From Ignavibacteria bacterium (GTDB taxonomy: Bacteria > Bacteroidota > Ignavibacteria > Ch128b), in NCBI GenBank assembly GCA_013177855.1, contig JABLYA010000001.1, positions 1,349,231 through 1,413,230 of the forward strand: DNA of 64,000 bases, read 5' to 3'. The number at the start of each line of letters is the position of its first letter. Positions within the stretch are counted from its first letter, which is position 1. Positions 49,112 through 52,785 of the stretch are shown one piece after another. Made by a program: the position numbers and the translations under genes. Under the pieces are notes generated by a model. It was not told where the DNA came from. It made no database searches and saw only the letters and a list, made by a program, of their open reading frames with translations.

Positions 49112-50140
<1,029 letters not shown>

Positions 50141-50150
50141 TTATTTTTAA

Positions 50151-50948
50151 TTACTTTGCGGCGTATTTCCACCAGTAGAAATACTTTGTTTCTAAATCTT
50201 CAATTGATGGCATTGGGTAAAATACCATTTCATCACCATCAACAAACCAGAAACCATGACGAATTAGTGAGAAGGAAATATCCTTTAATACAGATCCAAG
50301 ACTTATTGTCTTTGTTAATTTTTCTGGATTAGATTTTAATTCTTCAATACATTCTTTAACACGATAGGGATTGACATTTGGAATTGCACAGGTGATAATT
50401 GATTTTCCTTTGTTCTCTTCAAAGAATTTATCAATGTTAAAATCAATTTGAGTAAATAAAATTTTTGGTGCACCTTTTGCTTTTGTTCCTCTTGTAATCC
50501 ATTTACCAAATGCTCTTTGATCAAGTGTTGATGCAACCAATGTTTCAAGAGGACAAATCTCTTGATAAATTCTAATCAATCCAGGTTGATTAACAGCAGT
50601 ATACTCACCTTTTTCGAGTGGAAGGACTTTTCCATTTGGATGTACCAAATACAAGTCCTTTAATACATTCAAAGGAACGTGCTCAAGAACAGCATAGGAA
50701 CTGATAAACTTTGTTCTTTTTGGTCTTCCTGTCACCGGATCTGCTTTTGTTTCTTCAAGATATTTATCAATCTCAAAGTATGGATCACGGAAATTAATAT
50801 CCAGTTCTACAAAAATTACTTTACCACTGTAATGTTTTGTGCTTCCAACAGCGTAGTGCATTCCAAAATCTTCTGGTTCAAGCTGGGAAGCTACAAGCGC
50901 GTTTATTGGAAAAACAATCATATACAAATGTTTTGGATAATCAGCCAT
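50151..50948 (-). CDS. Conserved protein of unknown function, upstream of gap
   Basis: This 265-residue soluble protein has no signal peptide; the start is supported by GAGGT upstream. Notable segments are HLYMIVFPINALVASQLEPEDFG, HYAVGSTKHYSGKVIFVELD, ICPLETLVASTLDQRAFGKW, KILFTQIDFNIDKFF and HGFWFVDGDEMVFYPMPSIEDLE. The two KV(I/L)F-type strands suggest a pseudo-repeat. I recognise no family and no catalytic motif. Its position 31 bp before gap, as first gene of a two-gene unit beside the DnaA-box region, hints at a housekeeping role. Confidence 0.75.
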   Translation of the reverse strand: MADYPKHLYMIVFPINALVASQLEPEDFGMHYAVGSTKHYSGKVIFVELDINFRDPYFEIDKYLEETKADPVTGRPKRTKFISSYAVLEHVPLNVLKDLYLVHPNGKVLPLEKGEYTAVNQPGLIRIYQEICPLETLVASTLDQRAFGKWITRGTKAKGAPKILFTQIDFNIDKFFEENKGKSIITCAIPNVNPYRVKECIEELKSNPEKLTKTISLGSVLKDISFSLIRHGFWFVDGDEMVFYPMPSIEDLETKYFYWWKYAAK

Positions 50949-51159
50949 AAATACCTCGTTCTTGATTATATTAAAATCTTAATTTTACTTTCACAAAGTT
51001 ACTGATATTAAATTCTTATATCAATTGACAAAACACACACATTTTGAATAACTCTTATTTAGTTTTTAAAAGAGTTTTAAATCTTAAATAGTAAATATAA
51101 TGAGGTTTAATTGTGGAAATTTCGAAAGATTAATAAAACAAATGGATTTTTTTATAAAG

Positions 51160-51270
51160 TTATCAACATAATGTTGTGGATAAGTAAAATTAATTCACAT
51201 TATTTTGTTGCAGTGAACTATTAAAAATTTAATTAACACATTATCCACATCTTTTAAAAATTTATCCACA
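51160..51270. other. DnaA-box cluster: candidate replication origin or DnaA-regulated site
   Basis: The 445 bp spacer 50949-51393 between divergent genes is strongly AT-rich and holds three perfect TTATCCACA boxes: 51241-51249 (+), 51262-51270 (+) and 51175-51183 (-). A one-mismatch box TTATCAACA lies at 51160-51168 (+), with two-mismatch variants at 51191-51199 and 51112-51120. The two plus boxes are 21 bp apart start to start, about two helical turns, and the left pair converges. AT-rich flanks (51051-51160 and 51280-51345) could serve as unwinding elements. I noticed no other perfect box in the window. dnaA, dnaN and gyrB are absent, so it may be oriC, a DnaA-titration site or a regulatory site. 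Confidence 0.5.
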
Positions 51271-51393
51271 TCAGATCAACATAATTTCATTCAAAAAAAT
51301 AGTTTAATTTTGTATTGTAAAAATTAATTAAGAATGAAAACCAAGACATTATTCAATCAGGGGATAAACAAAAACAAATAAGTGAGAGGAAAA

Positions 51394-52785
51394 ATGGAAT
51401 ACAGAATAGAAACCGACAGCATGGGCGAAATGAAAGTCCCAGCTGATAAATACTACGGAGCTCAAACTGCTCGTTCGTTGATGAATTTCAAAATCGGTGG
51501 TGAAAAATTTCCACCAGAATTTATTCGTGCTCTGGCTATTGTAAAAAAAGCAGCAGCTTTAACAAACAAAGAACTAGGAGTCTTAGCTCCTGAAAAAGCA
51601 GAATTAATTGTAAAAGCAGCTGATGAGATAATTGAGGGCAAATTAAATGATCATTTTCCTCTTGTTATCTGGCAGACCGGAAGTGGAACTCAAACAAATA
51701 TGAATGTTAACGAAGTTATTGCTAATCGAGCTATTGAGATGGCTGGCGGTGTAATGGGAAGTAAAAAACCAATCCATCCCAACGATGATGTTAATAAATC
51801 TCAATCGACTAATGATGCTTTTCCAACAGCAATGCACATTTCTGCTGTTGAAGAAATTCATCGAAGATTAATTCCAATGGTTACAAAACTCAGAGACGCT
51901 TTGAAACAAAAAGCAGAAGAGTTTAAAGACATAATTAAAATTGGAAGAACTCATTTAATGGATGCGACTCCATTAACTCTTGGTCAGGAATTTTCTGGTT
52001 ATGCTCAACAATTAACAAATGGACTTGAAAGAATTGAATCATGTTTACCACGACTTTATGAAATTCCTCTCGGAGGAACTGCTGTTGGAACAGGATTAAA
52101 TAGTCATCCAAAATATGCTGAAAAAGTTGCCGAAAAAATTTCTGAAATTACCGGAAAGCCTTTCAAAACAGCACGAAATAAATTTGAAGCAATGGCTGGA
52201 AAAGATGCAATGGTTGAATTGCATGGTGTTCTGAAGACTCTTGCTGCGTCATTAATGAAAATAGCAAATGATATCCGCTGGCTTGCATCCGGTCCAAGAT
52301 GTGGTATTGGCGAAATAAATATTCCAGAAAATGAACCTGGAAGTTCGATAATGCCAGGCAAAGTTAATCCGACCCAATCTGAAGCTATGACAATGGTTTG
52401 TGCTCAGGTTTTTGGAAATGATGTAACTGTAAACTTTGCTGGTGCAAGTGGAAATTTTGAGTTAAATGTATTTATGCCTGTAATTATTTTTAATGTTTTA
52501 CAATCGATCAGATTGTTAGCTGATGCTTGTGAGAGCTTCACTGATAATTGTGTTGTTGGTATAACTCCTAATTATGACAGAATTAAAATGCATTTGAATA
52601 ATTCTTTAATGCTTGTGACTGCATTAAATCCAGTTATTGGTTATGATAATGCTGCAAAAGTTGCTAAAAAAGCACACAAAGAAGGAAAAACTTTAAAAGA
52701 GGCTGCAGTTGAACTTGGACTTTTAACACCTGAAAAATTCGACGAAGTGGTAAGACCCGAGAAAATGATTGGACCGAATTTATAA
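51394..52785 (+). CDS. fumC: Class II fumarate hydratase
   Basis: This 463-residue oxygen-stable, iron-free fumarase interconverts fumarate and L-malate. The start at ATG 51394 (after GAGAGG) is preferred to an in-frame GTG at 51382, since [28 protein letters not shown] is the usual N-terminus. Signatures are [54 protein letters not shown] and [16 protein letters not shown]. It is transcribed alone, rightward from the DnaA-box region, and ends at a hairpin terminator. Confidence 0.97.

Follow-up and report, generated by a model that had tools for sequence, protein, structure and literature searches.

The divergent intergenic spacer between fumC and the operon formed by a conserved 265-aa gene and gap is, with high probability, the oriC of this Ignavibacteria lineage, the site where chromosome replication begins; both initiation and DnaA binding there are inferred from sequence. 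The sequence-only reading had raised an origin here as one possibility, and this is supported by the position of the strand-composition switch, by the retention of DnaA boxes in two congeners and by the lack of a switch at dnaA. In the mechanism that we propose, DnaA would occupy the perfect boxes toward fumC as well as the weaker ones toward gap and would open the very AT-rich DNA at 51049-51155, and two forks would depart from the site, one leftward via the gap operon and the other rightward via fumC toward the rRNA operon.

The Ignavibacteria genome studied here (G000) comprises 3.66 Mb in 10 contigs. The window, i.e. the whole 64-kb stretch of DNA that was analysed, covers C1:1,349,231-1,413,230, and the predicted origin lies at C1:1,400.4 kb (1.4004 Mb). 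For comparison we used the congeners G002 (JAOAHM01) and G003 (CALDZP01) and the sister genera g2 (including G001) and g3; the family comparison comprises six genomes, and order-wide searches returned the same six or fewer.

Organization of the box-bearing spacer

The spacer contains three perfect copies of TTATCCACA and a single-mismatch box within 111 bp, all four at the coordinates and on the strands first claimed for them (Table 1). The three perfect copies are the only ones in the 64-kb window. A count across the 3.66-Mb genome, as the sequence-only reading had advised, gave 70 perfect boxes (32+38) as against 22 for a reversed-sequence control, and a simple Poisson estimate from this genome-wide density predicts ~1e-4 triplets like that of the spacer in the entire genome, which upholds the view that the cluster is not due to chance. 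The sole genome-wide case of two plus-strand boxes in the same orientation 3-30 bp apart is in the spacer, and a family-wide search for tandem perfect boxes recovered matches in the G000 genome alone. Further, at least three perfect boxes within 300 bp occur at only two places in the genome, the spacer and the region upstream of dnaA, and no rival box cluster was found in the scanned stretches of 1.254-1.538 Mb.

Table 1. Features of the predicted origin, its flanking genes and the dnaA upstream region (positions are those of the window unless a contig is given)
Feature	Position	Strand	Basis or remark
Predicted oriC: divergent intergenic spacer, 445 bp, 78.9% AT	50949-51393		boxes, switch in congeners, common gene block
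gap, glyceraldehyde-3-phosphate dehydrogenase	49112-50119	-	leftward operon, after the 265-aa gene
Conserved 265-aa protein, no Pfam match	50151-50948	-	gene adjoining the spacer
Best-conserved spacer block, holding TAACTTTG	50980-51036 (motif 50994-51001)	-	alignment; match to Bacteroidota-type -7 promoter
Least stable spacer DNA, candidate unwinding element	51049-51155		duplex stability
DnaA-trio-like repeat TTA TAT TTA CTA TTT	51086-51100	-	11 nt beyond the weak box
Weak DnaA box ATTTCCACA, 2 mismatches	51112-51120	-	aligns with TTTTCCACA in G003 and TTATCCACT in G002
DnaA box TTATCAACA, 1 mismatch	51160-51168	+	also in both congeneric spacers
DnaA box TTATCCACA, perfect	51175-51183	-	motif match
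DnaA box TTATCCACA, perfect	51241-51249	+	motif match
DnaA box TTATCCACA, perfect	51262-51270	+	motif match
fumC, class II fumarase	51394-52785	+	rightward from the spacer
dnaA upstream cluster, four perfect boxes and two TTTTCCACA	G000:C1:1878301-1878541 (L002:809-1049)		within ~240 bp

Duplex instability in the spacer is greatest at 51056-51155, a 100-bp stretch that is among the top 0.03% for the window and overlaps the weak minus-strand box at 51112-51120. The trio-like repeat beyond this box is reminiscent of the box-spacer-trio layout in the basal unwinding system (BUS), for which we required a DnaA box with at most two mismatches, a spacer of 0-16 nt and at least three trios with a central A. 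Such an arrangement was found in G003 by program (aligned sequence TTA TTA TTA CTA CTC) and in G002 as read from the alignment (TTG TTG CTA CTA CTG), while G000 displays either three consecutive trios from 17 nt or five from 11 nt with one break. The repeat is suggestive because its spacing is identical in the three species, though at most suggestive because runs of at least three trios turn up in 33-59% of shuffles of such AT-rich DNA, so that a trio run is weak when taken alone. On the gap side, the best-conserved block of the spacer probably serves as promoter for the 265aa-gap operon, a reading drawn from its promoter-like motif.

Every gene in the ~16 kb to the left of the boxes (34.7-50.9 kb) is indeed directed leftward, as had been stated. 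The description of the site as adjoining fumC and gap is right in substance, except that the hypothetical 265-aa gene intervenes between gap and the spacer. The 265-aa protein is strongly conserved and adjoins gap in all six family genomes; searches with it retrieved relatives from Ignavibacteria/Ignavibacteriales MAGs, and it also has relatives in Verrucomicrobia MAGs at 41-49% identity.

Strand-composition switch in three species

GC skew was taken in 20-kb pieces along contig C1, with sampling amounting to 1.14 Mb and unbroken coverage confined to 1.254-1.538 Mb. In these samples it is negative from 0.26 to ~1.43 Mb and positive onward as far as 2.6 Mb; it does not shift at dnaA (1.879 Mb). 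Because skew may mimic gene orientation, we split the skew at third codon positions (GC3) by strand, thereby separating the replication signal from gene direction. On the left arm the GC3 skew is -0.098 for plus-strand and +0.058 for minus-strand genes, and on the right arm the corresponding values are +0.045 and -0.129. As each strand has opposite skews on the two arms the switch is independent of gene direction, and it is associated with replication and not with transcription alone.

The direction-corrected GC3 skew changes sign near 1.39-1.45 Mb. A changepoint model, in which sites were compared by log-likelihood and an interval was obtained by bootstrap, has its optimum at 1.391-1.393 Mb, with the spacer 3.6-7.1 log-likelihood units worse. 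Placing the switch at dnaA costs 191-235 units and placing it at dnaN 129-160, such that both are rejected by more than 125. The bootstrap is broad, its 95% interval spanning ~1.30-1.45 Mb and its modes falling near 1.39 and 1.446 Mb, and G000 by itself locates the switch to tens of kilobases only; its local skew signal is blurred because genes adjoining the spacer have changed arms. The idea that the GC-skew minimum would fall at the boxes is accordingly borne out in part: the strand composition switches in this region, not at dnaA, but the raw cumulative minimum is at C1:1,423.4 kb, 23 kb to the right of the spacer.

The congeners give a sharper position. In G002 the maximum-likelihood switch falls exactly within the orthologous spacer, and in G003 it is 2.2 kb away, with the spacer 3.7 log-likelihood units worse; a 140-kb stretch around dnaA in G003 showed no strand switch. 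Across the three species, gap-265aa-spacer-fumC is the one block of genes always found at the switch, and the box-bearing spacer is the single divergent intergenic region within it. Neighbours that trade arms are what one would expect from inversions around an origin (cf. PMC9584773). The alaS-region genes are situated to the left of the spacer in G000 and on the fumC side in G002, and a TPR/161-aa gene pair to the right of fumC in G000 lies toward gap in both congeners.

Comparison of the region upstream of fumC in these relatives, one of the checks proposed earlier, revealed that boxes are kept in both congeners, though fewer of them are perfect: the G002 spacer contains TTATCCACA, TTATCAACA and TTATCCACT, and that of G003 TTATCCACA, TTATCAACA and TTTTCCACA, with one perfect box in each. 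In G003 an insert of ~3 kb parts the boxes from fumC and they remain on the 265aa side, which implies that the cluster is not simply a fumC promoter element. This insert (G003:C78, L116:1100-4340) encodes a two-component system and is located within the predicted origin spacer. Of the two halves of the G003 spacer, the one next to fumC shows a weak alignment to the other, from which it may have arisen by a duplication followed by decay.

With respect to polarity, a 16S-23S-5S operon on the plus strand at C1:1,497-1,503 kb, 97 kb from the spacer, reads outward, and most genes on either arm point away from the spacer; these orientations argue strongly against the switch being a terminus. The rRNA operon was used for this purpose in place of highly expressed protein genes, none of which were found in a motif scan of the sampled stretches. 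When compared with the features by which an oriC is recognized, the spacer combines an intergenic DnaA-box cluster with AT-rich, easily melted DNA beside the boxes, a lagging-to-leading switch in strand composition that is broad in G000 and at or within 2.2 kb of the site in two congeners, conservation at the orthologous place in both of these, and an rRNA operon transcribed away from it. Two further features, common in origins and optional, are absent, namely adjacency to dnaA/dnaN and a nearby parS or parAB.

The parAB operon is often found near origins. In G000 a parA-parB operon is present at C1:217.6-219.3 kb (L172), near the skew maximum and 1.18 Mb from the predicted origin; this proximity to the opposite skew switch is an oddity for a chromosomal par operon. 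Nothing convincing as a parS was found near the spacer, where the only candidates were two-mismatch palindromes occurring at about control frequency, and in view of this and of the distant parAB we rejected parS as an origin marker. One perfect palindrome two mismatches from parS, TTTTTCACGTGAAAAA, is common to G000 (C1:1373947-1373962) and G002 (C42:62603-62618), 14-27 kb from the predicted origin.

Alternative locations and functions

The site that would classically be favored is the region upstream of dnaA, at C1:1,878.3-1,878.5 kb, in which case the cluster in the window would be a mere DnaA-binding regulatory or titration site. Many bacteria have oriC beside dnaA, and this region holds the richest DnaA-box cluster that we found, with its four perfect boxes position-conserved in G003 (L112). 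Yet the strand composition does not change there in either G000 or G003, and the log-likelihood falls by at least 191 units when the switch is moved to this point. The genes that classically accompany a dnaA origin (dnaN/recF/gyr) no longer adjoin dnaA in G000, and dnaA itself (C1:1,878.5 kb) is in mid-arm, 478 kb from the spacer, in keeping with the earlier statement that the boxes are far from any dnaA gene. We therefore rejected the dnaA upstream region as oriC and regard an origin there as very improbable. A richer cluster near dnaA had been named in advance as something that would refute an origin at the spacer; such a cluster does exist, but it is unaccompanied by a skew switch in the two genomes. 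Its most likely role is in DnaA autoregulation or titration, and it may be what is left of an older origin linked to dnaA; the titration or regulatory role that the sequence-only reading had offered as its alternative for the spacer fits the dnaA upstream cluster better. We likewise rejected dnaN as an origin marker, as it is in mid-arm at C1:1,067.8 kb (C1:1,068 kb), 332 kb from the spacer.

An origin elsewhere within a few tens of kilobases of the spacer, for example at ~C1:1,423 kb, where the raw cumulative skew has its minimum, or at ~1,446 kb, near the second bootstrap mode, is unlikely, though the least so of the alternatives. Neither position has a DnaA-box cluster, and the genes present there are not at the switch of the congeners, to which gap-265aa-spacer-fumC alone is common. 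That the boxes might instead constitute a DnaA-dependent transcriptional switch or a datA-like titration locus for the gap and fumC operons, unrelated to initiation, is suggested by their location in a divergent promoter spacer whose best-conserved block is promoter-like, and by the occurrence of datA-like box-cluster loci in E. coli (PMC4585315). Such a role would leave unexplained both the replichore switch on the spacer in three species and the retention of the boxes after an insert severed them from fumC; further, a datA-like locus is a DnaA-box cluster off the origin, whereas the spacer coincides with the replichore switch. We consider this function as the sole explanation to be no more credible than an origin at dnaA. 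Least probable by far is a reversed polarity, with the ~1.40 Mb switch as the terminus and the origin near parAB at ~0.22 Mb. The position of parAB at the other skew switch of C1 is in its favor, but it would require leading strands rich in C and a head-on orientation for most genes, the rRNA operon among them, and there is no perfect DnaA-box cluster near 0.22 Mb. The spacer as oriC hence remains the strongly preferred reading.

Proposed origin relocation within the family and relationship to known origins

In the sister genus g3 the dnaA-dnaN-recF-gyrB-gyrA cluster is intact and the spacer at the gap-265aa locus is short; the sister genera have no box cluster at this locus. The placement of the g3 origin at dnaA-dnaN is an assumption from gene order, the GC3 skew around these genes being too weak on a 15-16 kb contig to reveal a switch, and the contigs of G001 from g2 are too short for placing an origin. 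Within the same class, the predicted oriC of Melioribacter roseus is a 303-bp region between dnaA and dnaN (PMC3534657); like the G000 spacer it displays DnaA boxes at a GC-skew switch, and it differs in its neighbours, the spacer being located between the 265aa-gap operon and fumC. Given that g3 retains the dnaA-dnaN cluster and that M. roseus has its predicted origin there, whereas in the genus of G000 these two genes are separated and the strand switch is away from both, the simplest reading of these gene arrangements would be that the origin and dnaA parted company within this family. It is somewhat more probable than otherwise that the origin itself moved, with a new site arising at gap/fumC, dnaA and dnaN drifting apart, and a box-rich relic or control site being left behind at dnaA.

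The literature searched contains no published origin for the G000 lineage. Origins separate from dnaA are already known; the gap/fumC instance and the contrast within one family appear to be unreported in that literature. To our knowledge, transitions between a dnaA-dnaN setting and a separate origin have rarely been caught between genera of a single family. If the prediction is true, this lineage represents a natural experiment on origin relocation, in which the congeners narrow the new origin to one 445-bp spacer, such that relocation, the role remaining to the boxes at dnaA and the indispensable parts of an oriC become testable. It would also mean that prediction rules which take dnaA, or the richest cluster of boxes, as their anchor pick the wrong site in this genus.

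The oriC of E. coli is likewise apart from dnaA (PMC8287927), and shares with the spacer an intergenic location, TTATCCACA boxes and an AT-rich unwinding region. The G000 spacer has other neighbours and is at a far greater distance from dnaA, and the likeness rests on the shared features named above and not on 13-mers, GATC clustering or IHF/Fis sites. The basal unwinding system of Bacillus subtilis consists of a DnaA box, a spacer and DnaA-trios (PMC8287927, PMC6669920). The candidate element in G000 is similar in that a trinucleotide repeat lies 11 nt beyond a box, beside the least stable DNA, and this spacing is kept in three species; it differs in carrying two mismatches in the box and a break in the pattern at one of the five triplets. 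The datA and DARS loci of E. coli are intergenic DnaA-box clusters away from dnaA (PMC4585315) and share this with the spacer; however, they mark no replichore switch, whereas the G000-type spacer marks one in three genomes.
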